This document shows, piece by piece, positions 1 to 8,050 of a DNA stretch of 8,050 nt; the first letter of the stretch is position 1; every line of letters starts with the position of its first letter. This stretch comes from Chloroflexota bacterium (GTDB taxonomy: Bacteria > Chloroflexota > Limnocylindria > Limnocylindrales > CSP1-4). Location: positions 1 to 8,050 of the forward strand of contig JAKAMV010000432.1 in the NCBI GenBank assembly GCA_021812735.1, in the 5' to 3' direction. A program made the translations under genes and the position numbers. The notes under the pieces are model-generated. The model saw nothing but the letters and a program-made list of their open reading frames with translations, searched no databases and had not been told where the DNA came from.

Positions 1-367
1 CTTGGCTACTGCGGCTGGCAGCGCCACCCACGACTGCTGTGCGTGATGGCGATCGAATCTGGTGTCGTGGGCCACGACTCGCCGGGCCGGCTCGGGGCAT
101 CGTGCGTCATCTGCGGCGAGACGCCACGTGCCGCGGCCAGGTCCTGCGCTCCAGGTGCCGCGGGTGCCTCTCGCGCTTCATGGCCGAACCTGAGCCGTTC
201 CTCGCGGGCGAGACCGGCGGCTGCTGTGGCGGCGGGCACGATCACCGATCTTTGTGCGGGCGGTTCGACGTCGCCAGTGACGTCGAACCGGCGCCCCCCG
301 GGGAGCAGGCGGCCCATCTTCCAAGCGCGGCCGCACATGGAACATGGGCCGCTGGTGTAGCGACCGA
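1..367. other. Leading region without a recognisable gene
   Basis: No protein family is recognisable here on either strand. One plus-strand frame open from 39 to 542 contains a Cys/His-rich stretch, including CRGC and CCGGGHDH after an ATG at 180. The opposite strand is open from 338 down to 6. Neither has a convincing ribosome site or a continuous conserved-looking core. The only clear structure is the inverted repeat at 261-290. The region may be intergenic, or it may hold the decayed end of a gene outside the window. Confidence 0.4.
261..290. repeat. Perfect 12-bp inverted repeat with 6-nt loop
   Basis: CGGTTCGACGTC (261-272) is followed by the loop GCCAGT and then GACGTCGAACCG (279-290), an exact reverse complement. 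No T-run follows; the next bases are GCGCCCCCCG. It is therefore not a classical intrinsic terminator. It could be a dimeric repressor operator or an RNA hairpin. It lies about 80 bp upstream of the repeat array at 368-396. Confidence 0.6.
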
Positions 368-396
368 GTCTCAGCGCTCTTTCATCCTGTCCTCAG
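368..396 (+). promoter_or_regulatory. Tandem 11-bp heptamer array upstream of the coiled-coil/pspA unit
   Basis: GTCTCAG (368-374), CTTTCAT (379-385) and TCCTCAG (390-396) are separated by 4-nt spacers, so the TCA cores at 371, 382 and 393 recur exactly every 11 bp. The array ends 23 nt before an ATG at 420. Heptamers with 4-nt spacers on one face of the helix are how OmpR/PhoB-family response regulators bind. The same arrangement precedes four other units in this window, so this is probably the promoter or operator of the 420-2906 genes. Confidence 0.6.
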
Positions 397-419
397 GCAA
401 GCGGCGCAATCTCAGAGCC

Positions 420-542
420 ATGCCTCGATCGCTCTCGCGTGTGCCTCCGCACCCGCTGTCGTCCCATCGCAGGCTGCGCGCCCCGAGCGACCTCCCGAAT
501 CCCCGGCTCGCCGGCACCCAAGCGGCCCCGAGGTCGCGGTGA
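420..542 (+). CDS. Possible 40-codon leader ORF coupled to the coiled-coil gene
   Basis: The ATG at 420 lies 23 nt after the last heptamer of the upstream array, the same distance seen at other units. It has no Shine-Dalgarno sequence, as expected of a leaderless start. The ORF reads 40 residues, rich in Pro, Arg and Ser, and its TGA (540-542) overlaps a GTG at 539 as GTGA, the classical translational-coupling arrangement. The peptide itself resembles nothing known. Alternatively, ATG 420 is the true start of the downstream protein and a 1-nt indel separates the frames, because the downstream frame in this stretch reads a more signal-peptide-like Ala/Val-rich segment. Confidence 0.3.
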   Translation: MPRSLSRVPPHPLSSHRRLRAPSDLPNPRLAGTQAAPRSR

Positions 543-2101
543 CATCCGGCAGCCGACACCCGTTCGGCCGAATGGTGGCCGCCACAGCCCTCGGCCCGAT
601 CGGCGCCGGCCTCGGCCCGATCTCGAGCGGCCCGGCCCTCGGTGGCGGGCTCGATGCCGTGGTCGCGGCAGCCCTCCTCGGCACAGCGCTCGTCGCGGTG
701 GGCCTCGCCCTCTTGGCCCGGGCCGTGGCCCGCTGGCGTCGGCGGCGGCGCAGCGCGGCCGAACGATCCCAGCGGATCGCCCAGCTCGCCACCGAGGCGA
801 ACAGGCTCATCATCGAGGCCGATGACGCCGTGCGCGAGGCCGGTCAGGACCTGGGGTTCGCCGAGGCCCAGTTCGAGGAGGCGGACGTCGCCCCGCTCCG
901 CACCGTCGTCGCGACGGCCGAGGCCGAGCTCAGGGCCGCCTTCGGCGTCCGGCAACGGTTCGACGAGGCGCCAGGGGATGCCGCGACGCAGGCTGCGACG
1001 CTGGGCGAGATCGTCGGGCGCTCCCGACGGATCCTCGATTCGCTCAACGCCGAGCGAACGCGGATCGATGGACTGCGCGAACGTGACCGTGAGGCGCCGG
1101 AGATCCTCGCAAGGCTCGCTGGCCGGATCGCCGCGTTCGAGGGGCGGCTGCCGGCCGTCGAGGTGGCGATCGCTCGCCTCGAAGCGTATGCGCCGGCTGG
1201 CTGGGATGCCGTCAGGACGAACGTAGAGGAGGCGCGCGGGCGCCTGGCCGACTCGGAGACCGAGACAGAACGGGGCATGACCGCCCTGGCAGCGAAGCCC
1301 ACAGACATGAGCTCAGCGGCCCGCAGCGCCAGGCGGGCCATCGGGGCGCTGGCCGAAGCGGGGACGTTGCTCGACAACGTCGAGAACCTACTGGCGGAGC
1401 TCGACGACGCGCGCGCCAGGGTCGCCTCCGAGGTCGAGGCGGCGGGGCGTGACCTCGAGGCGGCGAAGCTGTCGATGTCAGGCGAGTGTCCGGTCGACCC
1501 GGGGCTGGCCGCCGGGATCGCCGAGGCCGACCGCCTCCTGGCCCGGGCCAAGACCGCGGCATCGGGGGACCACCCGGATCCGGTGGCCGGCCTCCGCGCG
1601 GCCCGGCAGGCGCGTGCCGACGTCGTCGCCGTCCTCGCCAGCGCCCGTACGGTGGCGGATCGCGAGGCACGCCGGGCGGCCGCCGCGGCGACGGCGTTGC
1701 GCTCGGCGGAAATATCAATCGGCCGGGCGAACGACTACATCGCCACCCGTAGCGACGTAGGCGGCGAGGCTCGAACACGGCTCCTGGAGGCCCAGCAGCG
1801 CTACGACCAAGCGATGTCGCTTGCCGTTGCCGATGTCGAGAGAGCCACGCGGGCGGCGAGGACGGCCGACCGACTCGGGGATGAGGCGTACGGCTTGGCC
1901 AGGTCCGACACGGACAGATGGGATCGCCGCCACGACAGTCCGATCGACCCCGGCGCGGTCATCCTCGCCGGAATCGTCGGCAGCCGCCGGGGTTGCGGCA
2001 GTCCGGGAGGCGCATGGCGCGGACCCCTGGGCCGCAGTGGCAGCCTGCATGGCGACGATGGCCGTGACGACCGTGGGGGCGACGGCGAGGGAGGATGTTG
2101 A
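539..2101 (+). CDS. Single-TM coiled-coil membrane protein, TPM-associated type without TPM domain
   Basis: A 520-residue protein. From GTG 539, a short Gly/Pro-rich N-terminus is followed by one membrane segment (about residues 40-63), an Arg cluster (66-71) and about 400 residues of Ala/Glu/Arg-rich helices. The helical part matches my recollection of the C-terminal half of TPM-domain proteins found next to pspA: EADDAVREAGQDLGFAEAQF near residue 93, REAPEILARLAGRI, LLDNVENLLAELD and EARTRLLEAQQRYDQAMSLA. The tail is Gly-rich, as in that family. Positive-inside charge puts the helices in the cytoplasm, where PspA is. The extracytoplasmic TPM domain expected upstream of the TM is absent. The chosen start has GAGG at 530-533, 5 nt upstream. 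An in-frame ATG at 572 is an alternative, and the frame is open from 344. pspA follows 94 nt later. Family assignment is moderately sure; function is inferred. Confidence 0.75.
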   Translation: MTSGSRHPFGRMVAATALGPIGAGLGPISSGPALGGGLDAVVAAALLGTALVAVGLALLARAVARWRRRRRSAAERSQRIAQLATEANRLIIEADDAVREAGQDLGFAEAQFEEADVAPLRTVVATAEAELRAAFGVRQRFDEAPGDAATQAATLGEIVGRSRRILDSLNAERTRIDGLRERDREAPEILARLAGRIAAFEGRLPAVEVAIARLEAYAPAGWDAVRTNVEEARGRLADSETETERGMTALAAKPTDMSSAARSARRAIGALAEAGTLLDNVENLLAELDDARARVASEVEAAGRDLEAAKLSMSGECPVDPGLAAGIAEADRLLARAKTAASGDHPDPVAGLRAARQARADVVAVLASARTVADREARRAAAAATALRSAEISIGRANDYIATRSDVGGEARTRLLEAQQRYDQAMSLAVADVERATRAARTADRLGDEAYGLARSDTDRWDRRHDSPIDPGAVILAGIVGSRRGCGSPGGAWRGPLGRSGSLHGDDGRDDRGGDGEGGC

Positions 2102-2195
2102 CGGCAGCTGATGGCGGCCGCAGGTCCTTATGAGCCGCCGAAGGAAGCAGATTTCCACAGCGAACGCAATCGACACGCTTAATGGAGAGGCAGTC

Positions 2196-2906
2196 ATGGC
2201 CCAGTCATCGATCCTCGGACGCGTGAGCCAGCTCGTTCGCGCGAACGTCAACGCGCTCATTGACGGCGCCGAGGACCCGCAGAAGATGCTCGACCAGCTC
2301 GTCCGCGACTTCACGGACAACATCCGCGAGGCCGAGGAGGCCGTCGCCCAGACGATCGGCAACCTCCGTCTCCAAGAGGAGGACTCGAAGGAGGCATCGG
2401 ACGCGGCCGTCGATTGGGGCGCCAAGGCCGCCGCCGCCTCGAAGAAGGCCGACGAGCTGCGCGCCGCCGGCAATCCCGACGCCGACAAGTTCGACAGCCT
2501 CGCCAGGATCGCGCTCAAGCGCCAGATCTCGTACGAGGACCAGGTCAAGGCCTTCGCGCCGCAGATCGAGCAGGAGAATGCGCTAGTCGAGCAACTCAAG
2601 AACGGGCTCAACCAGATGCGCGCCAAGCACGAGGAGCTCGTCCAGAAGCGCGACCAGCTGATCGCCCGGGCCAAGATGGCCCAGGCGCAGGTCCAGGTCC
2701 AGCAGTCGCTCAAGAGCGTCAACGTCATGGACCCGACGAGCGAGGTCGCCCGCTTCGAGGACAAGATCCGCCACGAGGAGGCGAAGGCCACCGGCATGGC
2801 CGAGGTCGCCGCGAGCTCGCTCGACTCCCAGTTCGCGAGCCTCGAGGACGAGGAGAGCAACGCCGAGGTTGACGCCCGCCTGGCCGCCCTCAAGGGGGGC
2901 GCATAG
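2196..2906 (+). CDS. pspA: PspA/IM30 (Vipp1) family phage-shock protein
   Basis: A 236-residue, almost entirely helical protein of typical PspA length. The N-terminus (ILGRVSQLVRANVNALIDGA, then EDPQKMLDQLVRDF) matches the conserved start of PspA/Vipp1. That start comprises an amphipathic membrane-binding helix followed by the first coiled-coil hairpin. Long Lys/Glu/Gln-rich coiled coils follow to about residue 215. Family members bind stressed inner membranes, oligomerise into ESCRT-III-like rods or rings and limit proton leakage. The start at ATG 2196 is fixed by GGAGAGG (2184-2190) 5 nt upstream; an in-frame ATG at 2130 would add 22 residues without family similarity. The gene follows the one-TM coiled-coil gene, a plausible membrane partner, and probably shares its promoter. 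No dedicated terminator was seen after it. Confidence 0.93.
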   Translation: MAQSSILGRVSQLVRANVNALIDGAEDPQKMLDQLVRDFTDNIREAEEAVAQTIGNLRLQEEDSKEASDAAVDWGAKAAAASKKADELRAAGNPDADKFDSLARIALKRQISYEDQVKAFAPQIEQENALVEQLKNGLNQMRAKHEELVQKRDQLIARAKMAQAQVQVQQSLKSVNVMDPTSEVARFEDKIRHEEAKATGMAEVAASSLDSQFASLEDEESNAEVDARLAALKGGA

Positions 2907-3174
2907 GGCAGTCTGAGACGGGGGCCGACAGCCACGCGTTTCGAGGCGGCGGGGATAATCCCAGTGGGTCGTGTGGCAGCGTGCTCGGAACGGCGGGCGT
3001 CCGCGGGAGCGGCGTGCGGGTCTCGGTGGGTCGGATTGTCCTAGCTGCAGCGGGCGTTGGCTGCGGCCGCGGTGGGGATCGAGCCCTCTCGGCTCATCGG
3101 CGAAGCCCGAACGGTGCCGCCTCAACACCGGCTGACCGGCGCCGTTCTGGTGGGCGCCTGTCTCGCCGGGTCGG
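2907..3174. other. Intergenic stretch after pspA
   Basis: No supported gene lies between the pspA stop and the heptamer array. Several frames are open but have no ribosome site and no recognisable product. A frame from about 3057 encodes a short hydrophobic run near 3140-3185, possibly chance or a remnant. A GATAAT at 2953-2958 resembles a -10 box but has no partner. Confidence 0.4.
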
Positions 3175-3214
3175 GCCTCATCTCGCTTGCGGGTCCGGCT
3201 CATCGCCCTCTCAG
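3175..3214 (+). promoter_or_regulatory. Tandem 11-bp heptamer array upstream of 3238
   Basis: GCCTCAT (3175-3181), a degenerate CTTGCGG (3186-3192), GGCTCAT (3197-3203) and CTCTCAG (3208-3214) are in 11-bp register. The last heptamer ends 23 nt before ATG 3238, matching the spacing at 420 and 6908. It is a likely OmpR/PhoB-type site or promoter element for the two-gene unit that follows. Three of the four positions carry an intact TCA core. Confidence 0.5.
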
Positions 3215-3237
3215 CGTGGCGTGCTCCGATGGTCGGC

Positions 3238-3525
3238 ATGAAGAACAAACGCCTCTCGCTCGAGCAACCGCAGGCCCCGAGCGCACTCCAGCGGTTGCCG
3301 GCCGCGCTAGAGATCCTCTCGACACGGCTCCGGGCCGCCCTGGAGGAGCGCCGTGCCGCAGCACCCGGCAGCGAGCGGCAGCGCCGCGCCGACGAGGAGG
3401 TCGCGTACCTCAACGACCTGTACGTTGGCTTGCAGCGCCGGATGGCCATCCCGGCCGAGATCTGGCACCTCGAAGGCGGGCGAAAGGCCGCGCACGGGCG
3501 GGTCGCCGTGCCACCGCTGCGGTGA
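3238..3525 (+). CDS. Small charged helical protein of unknown function
   Basis: A 95-residue protein I do not recognise. It has no signal peptide or membrane segment. The middle (about residues 15-65) is Arg/Glu/Ala-rich and probably helical, ending in RADEEVAYLNDLYVGLQRRM. The C-terminus is basic. The start at ATG 3238 is preferred because the upstream heptamer array ends 23 nt before it; an in-frame ATG at 3229 and a GTG-type start at 3187 are alternatives. No Shine-Dalgarno is visible, consistent with leaderless translation. Its stop lies only 2 nt before the next ATG (3528), so the two genes are probably translated together. Confidence 0.5.
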   Translation: MKNKRLSLEQPQAPSALQRLPAALEILSTRLRAALEERRAAAPGSERQRRADEEVAYLNDLYVGLQRRMAIPAEIWHLEGGRKAAHGRVAVPPLR

Positions 3526-3527
3526 CG

Positions 3528-3887
3528 ATGCCAGCACGGCGGCCCGGTGCGCGCGGTCCTGGTCGCCCGAGCCTGCGGTTCGCAGGTGCGATCCATCTGT
3601 CGTACGGACTGCTCCGTCTGGCGGGACTTCGGGGCATGGCGGGACGGCTGCCGCCTCGGGTCTGCCTGCCGCTCCAAGTCGGACGGCTTGTTGGCGGGGC
3701 CGAGGCGGCGGTGGGGCTGGCACTGCTCGACCGGGCGCCGATCGAGCCCGCGGCACTGTACTGCGCAGTCGCGCCGGTCGATGACGCCGTCAGCCCGGTC
3801 TGGCGCGACTGGTTGCGCGGGCGTAGCCCGGGCTCGTCTCGCTCCGCCACTTCGGTGGTCTCGGGCCCGACGTCGCCCTGGTCGTGA
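3528..3887 (+). CDS. Small hydrophobic protein of unknown function, possibly frameshifted
   Basis: A 119-residue product. After a basic N-terminus (about residues 1-15), two hydrophobic stretches occur, around RFAGAIHLSYGLLRLAGL and VGRLVGGAEAAVGLALL, suggesting two membrane helices. A short third run, AALYCAVAPV, follows. The family is not recognised. The last ~18 residues turn Ser-rich with no coding-like pattern. Meanwhile another frame from about 3837 to a TAG at 3899-3901 reads a hydrophobic, high-GC3 tail (HFGGLGPDVALVVIAAG). The original C-terminus may therefore lie in that frame after an indel near 3830-3840. The ATG sits 2 nt after the previous stop. Confidence 0.45.
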   Translation: MPARRPGARGPGRPSLRFAGAIHLSYGLLRLAGLRGMAGRLPPRVCLPLQVGRLVGGAEAAVGLALLDRAPIEPAALYCAVAPVDDAVSPVWRDWLRGRSPGSSRSATSVVSGPTSPWS

Positions 3888-3901
3888 TCGCCGCGGGCTA
3901 G

Positions 3902-4420
3902 GAAGGACGCCCGCTCGCGAGGGTGATCGCCGAGCAGGCCACGAGGATCAGCATGGCTGCCGTGACGGCCCGAGGACGGCCTGCCGCGGCCGAGGGTTGG
4001 CGAGGTCCTGACGCTGCGAGGCCATCGGAAGAGCTCCGCCCCACGCCCAGGCGGACGACCGAGGGAGCCCTCGGTTCATCGACACCGTCCTAGGCCATCG
4101 GCCACCGGATGCGCGAGGCGCCGTGAAGGTCCCCGCTCTGTCCGAGCGCGCCTCCTGGCGGTCTTCGTCGCGGTCGCGGCTGCCGCACCCGTTACGGTCG
4201 GCGCCGCAGCACCGGCTGGCGACGAAGGTCTCCGTGACCTGCCCGACCGTCATAGGGATCCGGTGGAGCGGTTCTGAGCGTTCAGCGTCGGATGCCACGC
4301 CTTGACCGAGTCTTGATCAGGACCTGACTCGCTCTCCATCGACACGCGCGCCGGCCCGCCCGGATCATGGACCGATCGCGTCCTCGCGGTTCGCTCACCA
4401 ATCAGGCGCCGCCGCTGGCG
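3902..4420. other. Gene-poor stretch upstream of the TlpA-like gene
   Basis: No convincing gene was found in about 520 nt. A short frame around 4135-4270 reads a signal-peptide-like run (ARLLAVFVAVAAAAPVTVGA) but has no start codon and ends at a TGA in 4270-4280; it may be a remnant. A possible weak promoter is TTGACC at 4302-4307 with TGACTC 17 bp later. Two heptamer-like words, TCCTCGC (4381-4387) and CGCTCAC (4392-4398), lie in 11-bp register 36 nt before ATG 4435. They are a weaker version of the array seen elsewhere. Confidence 0.35.
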
Positions 4421-4434
4421 CAAGGAGCCGCTAT

Positions 4435-5031
4435 ATGGGCGTCGCGCTCGGGTCCATCGGCCGGTCTCGACCGACCGCTGGCCGTCTTCAGACGATCATC
4501 GTGATGGCCGTCACCGTGGTGGCCATCTCGGGTATCTCCTGGTATGTCGGCCAGTCGTCCGATGACGGGATCACCGCGATCAACGTGCGGGCGGCCACCG
4601 GGATCACGCCGCCGACTGTCGGCAAGCCGCCCACGCCGTTCACTGGGCTCACCTACGGGGGAGCGACCGTCTCGCTGGCCGACTATGCGGGCAAGCCCCT
4701 TTGGCTCAACTTCGGCGCCTCGTGGTGCCCCGACTGTCGAGCCGAGGCGGCCGACTTCGAGGCCACGTACGAGAAGCACCGGGGCCAGGGCCTGAACGTC
4801 CTCGCGGTGTTCATCAACGAGCCGGCGGCCGACGTCAAGGCGTATGCGCAGCGTGCGGGTCTCACCTTCCCGATCGTCGTCGATCCCACCGCCAAGATCG
4901 CCAGCGCCTACTCGCTGGTCGGGATCCCCATGCACATCCTGATCGGCCGCGACGGCCTGATCAAGATGATCAAGATCGGCGCCCTGTCGCCGGACGACAT
5001 GGAGAAGGCCGTCGAGACGATCCTCACCTGA
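4435..5031 (+). CDS. Membrane-anchored TlpA/ResA-like thioredoxin
   Basis: A 198-residue protein. A basic N-terminus and an uncleaved signal anchor (about residues 20-39) lead to a linker and a thioredoxin-fold domain of the AhpC-TSA/Redoxin (TlpA) type from about 62 to the end. The active site is WCPDC (C98 and C101), and the conserved cis-proline is in VGIPMHIL (P165). Such proteins act outside the membrane as thiol-disulfide reductants, for example in cytochrome c or copper-centre maturation. CPDC is less usual than the CxPC forms of TlpA/ResA. AAGGAG (4422-4427) lies 7 nt before the ATG, so this gene, unlike other unit-leading genes here, has a clear ribosome site. It is convergent with the lipoprotein/CC-HH pair. 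Its specific substrate is unknown. Confidence 0.88.
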   Translation: MGVALGSIGRSRPTAGRLQTIIVMAVTVVAISGISWYVGQSSDDGITAINVRAATGITPPTVGKPPTPFTGLTYGGATVSLADYAGKPLWLNFGASWCPDCRAEAADFEATYEKHRGQGLNVLAVFINEPAADVKAYAQRAGLTFPIVVDPTAKIASAYSLVGIPMHILIGRDGLIKMIKIGALSPDDMEKAVETILT

Positions 5032-5182
5032 CCCCGGCGCCTCGCGGGCGCGGCCGGACGGGGGCACAGCTCGTTCCGTGGTTCGCAGGCCGGCTCTGGT
5101 CCTCTCAAGGTGACCGCCGCCGTTGCCGTCCCTGCCACCCGCGCCCTCGAGGGCCGACCGTCACGACGACGGGGAGCGGCCG

Positions 5183-5689
5183 TCACGCGGCTTGGCTGAC
5201 CCGATCCGCGACCTCGCAGGCGTGGCGCGCCCGGCGCAGCTCGCGCCACAGCACGGCCACGCCGACCGCGTTCATCGCGACCCCGAGGACCAGCAGAGGC
5301 CCCTTGTACGCGTCGAGGAAGACGGCCGCGGCCGACACGCCGATGAGCGGCAGGATGTCGGCCACGTGGTGCGCGCAGCAGGCGAGCATCGCAGCCGCGC
5401 TCGTCCCGGTGCTCGCCGCGGTCATGGCCGTGCCTCGCCGATGGCGCGATGCCGTCCGGCGGAGCTCGACGAACAGGGCCGCCTGGGTGCCGAAGCCAAG
5501 CGTCACGGCCAGCACGAATGGTGCGTCGGCCCGGAACTGCTCGAGCGCGTGGGGGGCACCCTGCGCCAGCATGATGATTCCCAGATACCAGCCGAGCAGC
5601 GAGAGGCCGGCGACGAATCCGATCCCGGCGGCCCGCCATCCGACGATGGCCGGCGCCGGTGCCCGGAGTTCCGGCGCGAGGGCGGTCAC
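5183..5689 (-). CDS. Four-TM membrane protein with CC-x-HH motif
   Basis: A 168-residue protein from GTG 5689, whose start overlaps the upstream lipoprotein stop as GTGA, indicating coupled translation. Hydrophobic segments lie at about residues 20-41, 57-76, 97-122 and 129-147. A basic loop (RRTASRHRRG) between the second and third should be cytoplasmic. The third carries MLACCAHHVADILPLIG: adjacent cysteines 104-105, histidines 107-108 and Asp 111, all within or at the edge of the membrane, a plausible transition-metal or haem site. I recall similar uncharacterised proteins with CC-x-HH-x2-D-x-LP but no assigned function. The 151-nt convergent gap to the TlpA-like gene contains only a weak 5-bp stem (5037-5051). 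Metal transport or redox is an inference from the motif and neighbours. Confidence 0.8.
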   Translation of the reverse strand: MTALAPELRAPAPAIVGWRAAGIGFVAGLSLLGWYLGIIMLAQGAPHALEQFRADAPFVLAVTLGFGTQAALFVELRRTASRHRRGTAMTAASTGTSAAAMLACCAHHVADILPLIGVSAAAVFLDAYKGPLLVLGVAMNAVGVAVLWRELRRARHACEVADRVSQAA

Positions 5690-6165
5690 GCCCCGAGCCT
5701 CCACCGGAACACCCGCTCCGCCGCGCCGCCGACGTTCGGCAGGACGAGCTCCACCCAGGCGGCACCCTTGACAACGGAGCCGGCATCGCCCGCGAATGTG
5801 AGTTTGCCGGTGCGGTGGTGGCCGCCCGCCGGTGCACTCCACGAAGCGCCGACGAGCTGCTGGCCCCGGTCGTTGCGGAAGACGGCCGAGGCGAGGTTGA
5901 CGTCGTCGAGCGTGCCCGAGTGCGTGTCCATCGCGACATCGAGCACGCCGCCGGCAGCTGGCCCATCCCATGTGGCGGTGACCGTCACCCCGTTCGCCTC
6001 GCTGACCTGCTGCGCCGGAGAGGCGGGGTTGCCGGCCACCGCGGAGCTTGCCGACTGTGATCCGGATGGTGCTGGGCTCTGGCCCGCGGAGACGGCGCTG
6101 GTCGAGGTGCAGGCTGCGAGCCCCACCACGGCGACGAGGAGCGTGCTTGCGAACTGCGTCTTCAT
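5686..6165 (-). CDS. Secreted lipoprotein with beta-sandwich-like domain and His-His motif
   Basis: A 159-residue protein from ATG 6165. A lipoprotein signal peptide ends in the lipobox LAAC with Cys19. A Ser/Ala/Pro/Gly-rich linker (20-55) follows, then a globular domain (about 57-157) with alternating strand-like segments. Distinctive motifs are DTHSGTLDDVNLASAVF (80-96), GGHHRTGKLTF (114-124) and a final ERVFRWRL. I recall this pattern from uncharacterised extracytoplasmic proteins; His116-His117 and His82 could bind metal. Lipidation would require Lgt, encoded at the end of this window. The gene leads a two-gene unit with the CC-x-HH membrane protein. The start is supported by the heptamer array ending 22 nt upstream; no good Shine-Dalgarno is present. 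Confidence 0.85.
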   Translation of the reverse strand: MKTQFASTLLVAVVGLAACTSTSAVSAGQSPAPSGSQSASSAVAGNPASPAQQVSEANGVTVTATWDGPAAGGVLDVAMDTHSGTLDDVNLASAVFRNDRGQQLVGASWSAPAGGHHRTGKLTFAGDAGSVVKGAAWVELVLPNVGGAAERVFRWRLGA

Positions 6166-6187
6166 GGGACGAGCCTGGCCCTGGCAA

Positions 6188-6216
6188 CTGAAAGCCGGGT
6201 GAGCGCTCCGTGAGAA
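6188..6216 (-). promoter_or_regulatory. Tandem 11-bp heptamer array upstream of the lipoprotein gene
   Basis: Read on the minus strand, TTCTCAC (6216-6210), CGCTCAC (6205-6199) and CTTTCAG (6194-6188) are spaced by GGAG and CCGG, giving exact 11-bp periodicity. A degenerate TCCTCCG (6227-6221) extends the series by one. The array ends 22 nt before ATG 6165. This is the cleanest copy in the window and resembles Pho/OmpR-type direct-repeat boxes. Confidence 0.65.
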
Positions 6217-6259
6217 GTTGCGGAGGACGACGGCGGCCACTTGTGCCCGCTCGGACAGC

Positions 6260-6862
6260 ATGCGACCAACGGCCCCGGACGGTTCACAGCCGAACCTCAT
6301 CGTCGCCTCACCTGGGCTCATCCAGGAACCCAGACTCGGGCCCCGTGAGGACGGGAGTCGCCGCTCGCCAACCCGATACCTGGGGCTGGACGTTCTCGCT
6401 CAGGCGCTCCTCGCCCGGCTGCGCGCCTGCGACGTGGCGATGCCCATCCGCGCGACCAGCCTCGGCTCGACGCCCGCAGACCGCGCGGTCCTTGGCCGCC
6501 GCCCGATGCCGGTCTTGGTCCTCGACCAGGCGGGCTGCATGCTCGGCGCCGCCGGCCCCCGCCAGCTCGCTGCTGCCGCGGGACTCCACCGCGTCGTGGC
6601 GGACGCCATGACCCCGGCGAACCGGCTGGGCCTGATCTCGGGCGCCGACCCCGCGCAGGTGCTGGAGGGTCCCCTGAAGCGGGACGGCTTCGCGATCGTG
6701 CGCTGGCGCGGACGCCTGCTCGCAGCAGAGATGGACGATCTCCGTTGCCAGGCACGGATCTACCGGATGCTCTCGGACTGGGGACGGGCCCGCTTCGGTC
6801 GAGGACAACCGAAGTGGGCACCGCGTGGGGCTCGATGTGCGTGCTTCTCAGCCGGGCGTTAG
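6260..6862 (+). CDS. Degenerate CBS-domain pair protein, possible remnant of an S2P-type protease
   Basis: A 200-residue product if begun at ATG 6260; TTG 6218 is an in-frame alternative. Residues 40-170 read like two CBS units. The first has CDVAMP, RPMPVLVLDQAGCMLG and a closing helix. The second has VVADAMTPANRLGLISGADP, LKRDGFAIVRWRGRLLA and AEMDDL. The V-x-D-x-M-T-P openings and 'V-D-x-G-x-L-x-G' strands are CBS hallmarks. The second unit recalls the CBS tail of site-2-protease-like M50 peptidases, but no HExxH or membrane helices are encoded here. CBS pairs usually bind adenine nucleotides. GC3 is high only from about 6385 to 6730. The N-terminal ~40 codons and the last ~30 look non-coding, and the motif-predicted start (GTG 6345) is one frame off. 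It is probably a truncated or frameshifted gene. Confidence 0.5.
   Translation: MRPTAPDGSQPNLIVASPGLIQEPRLGPREDGSRRSPTRYLGLDVLAQALLARLRACDVAMPIRATSLGSTPADRAVLGRRPMPVLVLDQAGCMLGAAGPRQLAAAAGLHRVVADAMTPANRLGLISGADPAQVLEGPLKRDGFAIVRWRGRLLAAEMDDLRCQARIYRMLSDWGRARFGRGQPKWAPRGARCACFSAGR
6294..6321 (+). promoter_or_regulatory. Tandem heptamer array upstream of the CBS-like gene
   Basis: ACCTCAT (6294-6300), GCCTCAC (6305-6311) and GGCTCAT (6315-6321) have core spacings of 11 and 10 bp. A GTG (6345-6347) follows after 23 nt, the same distance as at the other arrays. That GTG is not in the frame of the CBS-like domain, which suggests a frameshift downstream or an error in the sequence. Confidence 0.45.
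6788..6819 (+). terminator. Strong hairpin near the end of the CBS-like gene
   Basis: GCCCGCTTCGGT (6788-6799) can pair with ACCGAAGTGGGC (6808-6819) over 12 bp, with a single G-U wobble and an 8-nt loop. No U-tract follows, so termination is only possible, not shown. It lies inside the open frame of the CBS-like gene but beyond its domain and before the next promoter-like array, where a transcript end would be expected. Confidence 0.35.
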
Positions 6863-6884
6863 CCGCGACTCATCCAGCGTTCAT
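6845..6884 (+). promoter_or_regulatory. Four-copy 11-bp heptamer array upstream of the cupredoxin/lgt unit
   Basis: TTCTCAG (6845-6851), GCGTTAG (6856-6862), GACTCAT (6867-6873) and CGTTCAT (6878-6884) have 4-nt spacers CCGG, CCGC and CCAG. Three cores are TCA and the second is TTA, all in exact 11-bp register. The array ends 23 nt before ATG 6908, which supports that start over GTG 6899. It is the likely control site of the small membrane protein, cupredoxin and lgt genes. Confidence 0.6.
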
Positions 6885-6907
6885 CTGGCTCCCCGATCGT
6901 GGCGGCC

Positions 6908-7102
6908 ATGGACATCGTCGGCTTCGTCTTGATCGGCATCGCCGCGCTCATCGCCCTCGACCTCTTGGTCGCAGGCGGCGCGGTGACGGTCACGTGTGCC
7001 GGCACGATCGTCGGCGTCATGGCACACCCCGCCACCTGGCTGGTCATCCTGATCGTGGCCGTGATCCTCTTCGCGGGGATCGGAGCGCTCGCGTGGGCCT
7101 GA
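6908..7102 (+). CDS. Two-TM miniprotein
   Basis: A 64-residue protein, nearly all hydrophobic. There are two membrane helices (about residues 3-26 and 42-62) joined by a short loop with Cys30, His40 and Pro41. It is not recognised. ATG 6908 is chosen because the heptamer array ends 23 nt before it; GTG 6899 would add three residues. No Shine-Dalgarno is visible. Its 3' end overlaps the cupredoxin gene start (GTG 7093) by 10 nt, so the two are co-translated and may form one membrane complex. High GC3 throughout supports coding. Confidence 0.65.
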   Translation: MDIVGFVLIGIAALIALDLLVAGGAVTVTCAGTIVGVMAHPATWLVILIVAVILFAGIGALAWA

Positions 7103-7611
7103 GCGCGGCCCAGCGTCGGCTCGGGGGCCAGGGCCGCCTCCAGATCGTCGACATCGTGGTGGCGAACGGCTATCACCCCAGCGTCGTCGAGGCCCGGGCC
7201 GGCGTCCCGCTCCGCCTCGTCTTCCGCCGGCTCGACGCCCACGAGTGCTCGGACCGCGTAGTGTTCTCGGAGCCGCGCCTGATCCGACACCTCGCACCCG
7301 GCGCCGACACCATCATCGACCTCCCGGCAGCCGGTCCCGGCGATGCCAGATTCACGTGCGGGATGGGCCGGTACCGCGGTCGGATCGAGTGGCGGACCGA
7401 GCCGGGAGCCGGGGGTGGCGGCATCCGCGGCCGCGGCGCGTGGCCCTGGCTGCTGATGACGGCCCTGCTCACCCTGCTTCTCATGGCGTCGATCGCCGCC
7501 GACGCGCCGGTCCTGGTGACATGGATCGCGGTCATGACCACGAGCCTCGCCGTGGCGGTGTTCATCCTGCGCGCCGCGGCCCTGCTGCCGCGCGCACACG
7601 GCCGGCGCTGA
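7093..7611 (+). CDS. Cupredoxin-domain protein with two C-terminal membrane helices
   Basis: A 172-residue protein. Residues about 16-101 form a cupredoxin-like domain: LQIVDIVVANGYHPSVVEA, RAGVPLRLVFRR, HECSDRVVF (His50, Cys52) and FTCGMGRYRGRIEW (Cys89, Met91). This matches the cupredoxin_1-type domain found with copper-handling membrane proteins, where Cys/Met residues near the final strand bind Cu. A Gly-rich linker (104-115) leads to two membrane helices (about 117-135 and 139-163). No signal peptide precedes the domain, so by topology it may face the cytoplasm. GTG 7093 has GGAG (7082-7085) 7 nt upstream and overlaps the preceding stop. lgt begins 9 nt after its stop. Copper binding is inferred from the family. 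Confidence 0.83.
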   Translation: MGLSAAQRRLGGQGRLQIVDIVVANGYHPSVVEARAGVPLRLVFRRLDAHECSDRVVFSEPRLIRHLAPGADTIIDLPAAGPGDARFTCGMGRYRGRIEWRTEPGAGGGGIRGRGAWPWLLMTALLTLLLMASIAADAPVLVTWIAVMTTSLAVAVFILRAAALLPRAHGRR

Positions 7612-7620
7612 GGCCCGACT

Positions 7621-8050
7621 GTGCCGTTCGTCATTGACATCGACCCCGTCGCGTTCCGCGTCGCCGGCCTGGACATCCGCTGGTACGGCCTGACCCTCGT
7701 CCTCGCCATGCTGGTCGCCTACTCCGTCGCCGATCACGAGGCCCGCCGGAGGAGGCTCCCGGCGGGCCTCGTGGCCGACGCCGTCCTGTGGGTGGCGGTC
7801 GGGTCGCTGGTCGGCGGCCGGCTCCTCTACGTCCTCCAGAACGGCCTGCCCGACCTGGCCGCCCACCCGGCGCACCTGCTCATGGTGTGGACCGGGGGCC
7901 TCTCCTTCTACGGAGGCCTCGCGCTGGGCATCATCGCGATCATCGTCCTCGCCCGCCGCCGCGGCGTCGACTGGCTGACCGCCCTCGACGTGGCGGCGCC
8001 GGCGGCCGCCGTGGGCCAGGCGGTCGGCCACGTGGGGTGCCTCATCGGCG
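7621..8050 (+). CDS. lgt: Prolipoprotein diacylglyceryl transferase, 5' part
   Basis: The first 143 codons are present; the gene continues past the window end. Lgt transfers diacylglycerol from phosphatidylglycerol to the lipobox cysteine of preprolipoproteins in the plasma membrane. Recognisable features are the N-terminal IRWYGL, GGRLLYVL (65-72), the WTGGLSFYGGL loop (90-100) and the start of the signature APAAAVGQAVGHVGCLIG (126-143). GTG 7621 is preceded by GAGG (7610-7613) overlapping the previous stop, with 7-nt spacing, so the gene is in one unit with the cupredoxin gene. The signature normally reads G-R-x-G-N-F; here it is G-H-V-G-C-L, replacing the conserved Arg and Asn. It could therefore be a lineage variant or an Lgt paralogue. 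Confidence 0.9.
   Translation, partial: MPFVIDIDPVAFRVAGLDIRWYGLTLVLAMLVAYSVADHEARRRRLPAGLVADAVLWVAVGSLVGGRLLYVLQNGLPDLAAHPAHLLMVWTGGLSFYGGLALGIIAIIVLARRRGVDWLTALDVAAPAAAVGQAVGHVGCLIG

Follow-up and report, generated by a model that had tools for sequence, protein, structure and literature searches.

Tandem YTCA arrays in a Chloroflexota contig as probable operators of a copper- and envelope-related two-component regulon

Five tandem arrays of a YTCA motif were analyzed in contig JAKAMV010000432.1 of a Chloroflexota bacterium (assembly GCA_021812735.1); "the window" below means the whole 8,050-nt stretch (71.7% G+C), and "array" means YTCA units in 11-bp register, with offsets counted from the last YTCA. 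The arrays are very probably PhoP/PhoB-type tandem operators of a copper/envelope regulon under one linked two-component system. This reading draws on computed observations of the arrays, the -10 hexamer behind them, their conservation, their linkage to and co-occurrence with a regulator gene, and the families of their targets. The kind of operator is already known; what is new is the regulon with its promoter code. Together they offer an operator code that can be read from sequence, a likely regulator and a regulon open to testing, in bacteria represented here mostly by metagenome-assembled genomes. A literature search over titles and abstract beginnings found no description of such arrays, and a paper on deep-branching Chloroflexota (PMC13212565) contains none of six terms looked for, including copper and promoter.

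Arrays and promoter architecture

Inspection of the sequence confirmed the positions that an earlier note on this DNA had given for the five arrays (Table 1), and the near-constant start-codon distance it described was found as 28, 28, 27, 28 and 28 nt between the start of the last YTCA and the codon. In its list of five units, each an array with a start codon, the arrays stand, whereas neither the codon at 420 nor that at 6345 opens a main open reading frame (ORF). Two of the arrays contain a degenerate unit (CTTG in array 2, the array at 3175, and GTTA in array 5, the array at 6845). Array 2 has the T of the -10 hexamer and lacks the A at its usual place, and array 4 is exceptional in that its final step is 10 bp and its -10 sits 10 nt past the last CTCA. 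The pattern YTCA-N7-YTCA-N7-YTCA, allowing at most two mismatches, matches the window nine times, against a mean of 1.05 in 200 dinucleotide shuffles, none of which had nine. Three window arrays combine three units, in which 10 or more of the 12 core bases match, with a -10, against a mean of 0.02 and a maximum of one in 200 first-order resamples. These shuffles and resamples, along with a reversed control pattern across 61 genomes (see below), rule out chance as the source of the arrays, as the note had held.

The architecture was read from 65 arrays in which three or more YTCA match exactly at 11-bp steps, aligned on the last YTCA. They come from 23 loci, comprising the window, L087 and L088 of genome G001, and 20 stretches of G002, G012, G017, G020, G024, G039, G046 and G055. 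These stretches were selected for array hits and -10 positions played no part in the selection; a separate list of looser arrays required a -10 beforehand, and its -10 is not independent evidence. The sole strong signal beyond the units is an A at +16 (59 of 65 arrays) and a T at +20 (62 of 65), found together in 59, which correspond to positions 2 and 6 of a -10 hexamer (nAnnnT) at +15 to +20, 11 nt past the last YTCA. The bases after TCA are mostly G/C/T, C/G and C, and no TTGACA-like conservation of a -35 box was found 17 bp upstream of the hexamer in the 65 arrays. Because the last unit ends 11 nt before the -10 and no -35 is visible, the regulator probably stands in for the -35. All but three of the arrays (62 of 65) lie outside called genes, though coding sequence makes up 85% of the total. 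When spacings of 6 to 16 bp were scanned in 21 stretches, themselves chosen by 11-bp hits, 73 triples were found at 11 bp and none at any other spacing.

ATG or GTG codons peak at +26, +27 and +28 (5, 15 and 10 of the 65 arrays, respectively), the remaining offsets from +21 to +79 having 0 to 5 each. Because +27 lies 7 nt past the -10, where transcription should begin, the corresponding mRNAs are probably leaderless; for the remaining arrays, the start codons of the led genes lie farther downstream, leaving leaders. The distance to the -10 is the constant, and the start-codon distance therefore follows from it. The fixed start-codon distance proposed earlier is thus real but secondary, and it probably reflects leaderless transcription; a constant distance of this kind can be a by-product of such transcription and not a property of the operator.

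The arrays are also conserved in relatives, a point on which the earlier note had made its proposal depend: orthologous copies of all five precede the orthologous genes in G002 (Table 1).

Linkage to an OmpR-family regulator and kinase

The scan of relatives that the note had proposed covered 61 genomes of G001's family, with the strict pattern YTCA-N7-YTCA-N7-YTCA-N12-A-N3-T and its reversal as control. The strict pattern has 113 matches and the control none, so that the matches are not random; it is therefore usable for finding targets, promoters and probable leaderless start codons from sequence. The three-unit pattern without the -10 has 208 matches against 16 reversed, some of them plain tandem repeats. 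A linked OmpR-family regulator, which the note had suggested looking for, was found among the arrays of relatives, with arrays before its own gene. Its orthologue (RR1) occurs at 16 places in 14 of the 61 genomes at 81-100% identity, the next matches being at most 58% identical (limit E 1e-60). Strict arrays are present in all 14 regulator-positive genomes (92 arrays), compared with 11 of the 47 others (21 arrays; Fisher p 2e-7). A strict array lies at most 250 bp upstream of half of the regulator genes (8 of 16), where 0.005 would be expected, and 58 of the 92 arrays in regulator-positive genomes are on the regulator contig, all within 60 kb. Looser arrays precede the regulator gene in L087, L120 and L136, and in L126 and L127 the regulator gene comes after an array-led multicopper oxidase gene.

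Of the two possibilities that the note had left standing, control by one regulator is supported by this tracking of arrays with the regulator across the 61 genomes, by the clustering on contigs and by the arrays before the regulator gene. The other, a general promoter of the lineage that would stand at most genes and need only the housekeeping polymerase and no regulator of its own, is very improbable. It would agree with the -10 hexamer belonging to the element, and with the strict matches found in 81 of 201 genomes drawn from the phylum (the reversed pattern had 4 matches). It is already contradicted by the merely 0 to 20 strict arrays per genome, by their clustering on regulator contigs and by a presence that follows the regulator, and it was rejected on these counts.

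Nine islands encode the response regulator (80-92% identical to the G055 copy, for complete copies) followed by the kinase (61-89% identical to the G001 kinase). The regulator has Response_reg and Trans_reg_C domains and the kinase HisKA, HATPase and HAMP, making an OmpR-family pair. The closest solved structure to the regulator by sequence is Mycobacterium tuberculosis PhoP (E 4.9e-64; PDB 5ed4, 3r0j, 9ji3). PhoP reads bases with Asn212, Val213, Glu215, Ser216, Tyr217 and Tyr220, of which Tyr217, Val213 and Tyr220 contact the T and C of TCACAGC (PMC4832192). The reading helix of the regulator, N-V-L-E-V-Y-V-R-Y, keeps five of these six (N212, V213, E215, Y217, Y220) and has V for S216, in a comparison of eight aligned orthologues, one of which has Ile at Val213. 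This fits an invariant TCA core with a different tail. An excerpt of the PhoP study also reports that three and four repeats were bound more tightly than two and that the 4-bp spacer was needed (PMC4832192).

The regulator scored 241.4 bits with the heavy-metal CopR/CusR model TIGR01387 (cut-off 279.2), and the kinase scored 202.3 bits with the CopS/CusS sensor kinase model TIGR01386 (cut-off 292.55), which was nonetheless the best of 74 models. Formal membership in the CopR/CusR or PhoB families was rejected on scores below the curated cut-offs. By eye, no clear metal motif was found in the sensor region of the kinase.

In L126 (5135-9022), L127 (7269-11153) and L136 (1724-5623), two pairs stand in tandem as RR1-HK1-RR2-HK2 (RR, response regulator; HK, kinase), with neighbors overlapping by 4 bp. 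The arrays could be operators of RR2, or of a Pho-type phosphate regulator, in place of RR1. In favor of this are the position of RR2-HK2 directly after RR1-HK1 in these three loci and near targets in L118 and L135, as well as the TCA core and 11-bp step shared with phosphate boxes. We consider it improbable: the RR2 reading helix is of HVVDVH type, whereas the NVLEVY of RR1 keeps the PhoP residues; the arrays precede RR1; and none of 20 target representatives scanned is a phosphate acquisition gene, nor was membership in a Pho regulon found among them. RR2 as the array reader was rejected on its differing helix. In L088 of G001 (9880-9858, minus strand), a different response regulator, about 45% identical, is preceded by a TTCA array that has CATAGT as its -10 and a GTG at +27.

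With RR1 as the reader, each array would serve as the tandem operator of an OmpR/PhoB-family regulator whose sequence is nearest to that of M. tuberculosis PhoP. Every 11-bp unit would take up one phosphorylated monomer in a head-to-tail row, with the PhoP-like helix reading the TCA core. Bound regulator would probably replace the -35 and recruit a sigma-70-type polymerase, a PhoB-like class II activation, and transcription would start 6-8 nt past the -10; in many targets the start codon begins at that very position, so that the mRNA would be leaderless. Regulator and kinase are encoded among the targets, with the regulator itself an array target, and control would cover P-type ATPases, HMA and YHS proteins, cupredoxins and multicopper oxidases along with envelope and redox genes. 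Binding, phosphorylation and a signal of copper or thiol stress are what we infer from these data.

Targets and known systems

The next gene was assigned to each array, giving 85 genes, with gene starts in relatives set by our own simple codon-usage gene caller; some assignments beyond 300 nt are doubtful, and Pfam/NCBIfam annotation covered representatives (20 scanned with Pfam). The metal-related clusters hold copper-type P-type ATPases and small HMA proteins (12), YHS proteins (8), cupredoxins (6 and 2) and multicopper oxidases (4), so that 32 of the 85 assignments fall in clusters whose representatives are of these kinds. The others hold the lipoprotein type of the window (8), response regulators (8, one being the different regulator of L088), small Cys-rich proteins (5), M23 peptidases (3) and smaller groups. 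In a check that we regard as unbiased, TIGR01511 above its cut-off identified 41 copper ATPase genes in the 14 regulator-positive genomes; a strict array lies no more than 1 kb upstream of 10 of them, against 0.05 expected, so that copper-handling genes are over-represented among the targets.

With the same operator and regulator, the signal might be envelope or disulfide stress, with the copper genes as one part of the response. This is possible but rather unlikely. Window targets including pspA, the lipoprotein and Lgt, an adjoining ResA-like thioredoxin, and further targets such as an M23 peptidase and a DoxX-type protein speak for it; the 32 assignments to the copper-related clusters speak against it.

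The PhoB/PhoP/OmpR-type layout that the note had suggested is borne out by the 11-bp direct repeats, the fixed place before the -10 and the linked OmpR-family pair. The M. tuberculosis PhoP operator TCACAGC-N4-TCACAGC likewise combines a 7-bp motif with a 4-bp spacer and has a TCA core. The present system differs in the bases after TCA, in V for S216, in its copper/envelope targets and in many predicted leaderless mRNAs, and the PhoP box proper (consensus TCACAGC) was not found in the arrays, which share the TCA with it. Upstream of the annotated pstS of Escherichia coli, 11 nt separate the last TGTCA from a TATTTT that we take to be the -10, and this geometry equals that of the last unit, 11 nt and hexamer of the arrays. 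The E. coli PhoB box differs in its CTGTCAT core and its phosphate regulon, according to an excerpt of PMC4415409. The same excerpt gives the Streptomyces PHO box as GTTCACC in 11-nt units, with a YTCA-containing core as here, but with phosphate control and another consensus after TCA.

For metal regulators, an excerpt of PMC3140484 describes the Corynebacterium glutamicum copper two-component system CopRS, whose site TGAAGATTT-nn-TGAAGATTT is a direct repeat with an 11-bp step, has TTCA in each unit of its reverse complement, and adjoins copper ATPase and multicopper oxidase genes. Compared by site and role only, CopRS differs in that a single site, of two units, is reported for its genome, whereas a genome here can have as many as 20 strict arrays with three or more units each. 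AgrR of Cupriavidus metallidurans (silver) is an OmpR-family metal regulator with a class II position and autoregulation, per an excerpt of PMC7380067; its box is an inverted repeat, whereas the arrays are tandem direct repeats. By analogy, the system appears to resemble CopRS in role and PhoP/PhoB in operator layout, with no curated family cut-off passed.

Beyond the family, six of the phylum genomes with strict matches were chosen for several arrays, and they have a best regulator homologue at 61-68% identity. Five of them (G183, G123, G074, G186 and G240) have this or another homologue on a contig with arrays, and one G074 array ends 46 bp ahead of such a homologue. G183 and G123 show the same targets with a 62% identical regulator on the same contig: an array-led gene in G183 encodes a P-type ATPase of 868 aa that has HMA domains, and one in G123 a protein sharing the DTHS motif with the window lipoprotein. 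Given these shared arrays, homologues and targets, both the type of operator and some of the regulon therefore extend past the family. Tentatively, we suggest that a PhoP-like clade of Chloroflexota, outside the curated PhoB and CopR/CusR families, may join operator and -10 into full promoters that lack a -35 and are often leaderless, that in one family one pair may make islands of up to about 60 kb (at most 20 strict promoters per genome) a single copper/envelope-stress regulon, and that related pairs may do likewise elsewhere in the phylum.

Several findings weigh against the main reading, a copper/envelope regulon under one linked two-component system. At least one strict array is carried by 11 of the 47 genomes without a regulator orthologue; among these, G021, G038 and G059 also have no kinase orthologue above 43% identity. 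In G004, the kinase orthologue (68%) starts at the very end of a contig, which may have cut off the regulator gene, an explanation that covers G004 alone among the exceptions. In G057 and G040, no strict array is on the contig of the regulator gene, and in G178 none of the four arrays is on a contig with a regulator homologue. No strict array lies within 1 kb of most copper ATPase genes (31 of 41), a link to copper is missing for many targets (M23 peptidase, PspA, MCRA family, FAD protein), and regulator and kinase fall below every NCBIfam cut-off among the matches listed. The window itself contains no regulator gene; the regulator would be encoded in the window's own genome.

Genes behind the arrays in the window

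Table 1. Arrays and genes of the window, and orthologous arrays in relatives (hexamers and transcription starts are predictions)
Feature	Location	Strand	Details
Array 1	370..396	+	YTCA at 370, 381, 392 (11 bp); predicted -10 CAATCT 407-412; predicted start near ATG 420
Array 2	3177..3213	+	units 3177, 3188 (degenerate), 3199, 3210; ATG 3238
Array 3	6189..6214	-	units 6214, 6203, 6192; predicted -10 CAGGCT 6177-6172; ATG 6165
Array 4	6296..6320	+	units 6296, 6307, 6317; -10 CAGACT 6331-6336; GTG 6345
Array 5	6847..6883	+	units 6847, 6858 (GTTA), 6869, 6880; -10 GATCGT 6895-6900; ATG 6908
Main ORF behind array 1	539..2101	+	likely start GTG 539 or ATG 572; then pspA
pspA (PspA/IM30 family)	2196..2906	+	PF04012 E 1.9e-38
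95-aa ORF	3238..3525	+	behind array 2; no Pfam match
Lipoprotein	5689..6165	-	behind array 3; lipobox Cys19, Asp80-Thr81-His82, Gly114-Gly115-His116-His117, all invariant
Unit behind array 5	6908..8050	+	small 64-aa protein 6908-7102; cupredoxin-domain protein 7093-7611; lgt from 7621
Array 1 orthologue	G002, L124 8929-8951		
Array 2 orthologue	G002, L124 about 5490-5530		two units seen at 11 bp; ATG at equal distance
Array 3 orthologue	G002, L118 8986-8964	-	
Array 4 orthologue	G002, L118 9763-9785		-10 at 11 nt missing there too
Array 5 orthologue	G002, about L118 10769		
Array 5 further orthologue	L122 about 17655	-	same spacing, same start-codon position
Array 5 further orthologue	L087 16224-16191	-	same spacing, same start-codon position

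The targets named in the earlier note were partly retained: the lipoprotein and cupredoxin/lgt units stand, pspA is probably reached through an operon headed by array 1, and the codon at 6345 belongs to a lost cupredoxin gene. The frame of ATG 420 is only 40 aa long, and the alignment of the main ORF with G002 starts at 539, a GTG in a different frame. This 40-codon ORF (420-542) ends in a TGA that overlaps GTG 539 (GTGA), which may couple translation. No Pfam match above cut-off was found for the main ORF. The pspA gene that follows has a separate GGAG-type ribosome site and lacks an array, and by its sequence context it is probably part of the array 1 operon. Its protein is 95% identical to one from "Chloroflexi bacterium isolate BP4.bin83" (L001, genome G001), and its DNA (window 2183-2900) is 94.0% identical to L001 and 87.2% identical to L124 of G002. 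The ORF flanking pspA aligns well with G002 only, and the L001 flanks hardly align. These DNA identities set against flank alignments indicate a patchy ancestry for the pspA gene. No array is present on L001, where the closest pspA lies, and the alignment of this contig with the window is confined to pspA and, weakly, the ORF before it.

The 95-aa ORF behind array 2 resembles, by eye, a 103-aa protein in G039 (L134 9943-10251, minus strand), which an array also precedes. The lipoprotein is 70% identical to one from "Candidatus Limnocylindrales bacterium", and its family has no Pfam match. Its invariant DTH and GGHH suggest a metal site. The predicted fold is a beta-sandwich (mean pLDDT 81.4), for which a comparison with the PDB gave nothing at E <= 0.001; the top match, the Helicobacter pylori copper determinant CrdA (E 0.0096, TM-scores 0.32/0.42), offers only a hint from a predicted model.

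Behind array 4, GTG 6345 is out of frame with the ORF that follows, and its G002 counterpart is an ATG that opens a 133-aa cupredoxin gene. This gene (L118 9812-10210) is missing from the window: positions 6274-6354 align with L118 9740-9821, and the alignment resumes at window 6383 with L118 10290. In the unit behind array 5, the cupredoxin-domain protein matches PF13473 (E 1.9e-09) and lgt matches PF01790 (E 3e-33), the latter being incomplete at the window end.

Window 4054-4219 aligns with L118 2503-2667, the junction of the second regulator and its kinase, and window 4301-5033 aligns with L118 3690-4422. The second two-component pair seems, from these alignments, to have been lost from the window, with the kinase body between the aligned blocks missing. 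At the start of the window (1-360), a frame with CRGCLSRF resembles, by eye, the FRCAGCFSRF of small Cys-rich proteins that are array-led in L121, L123 and L087, and this copy looks broken.

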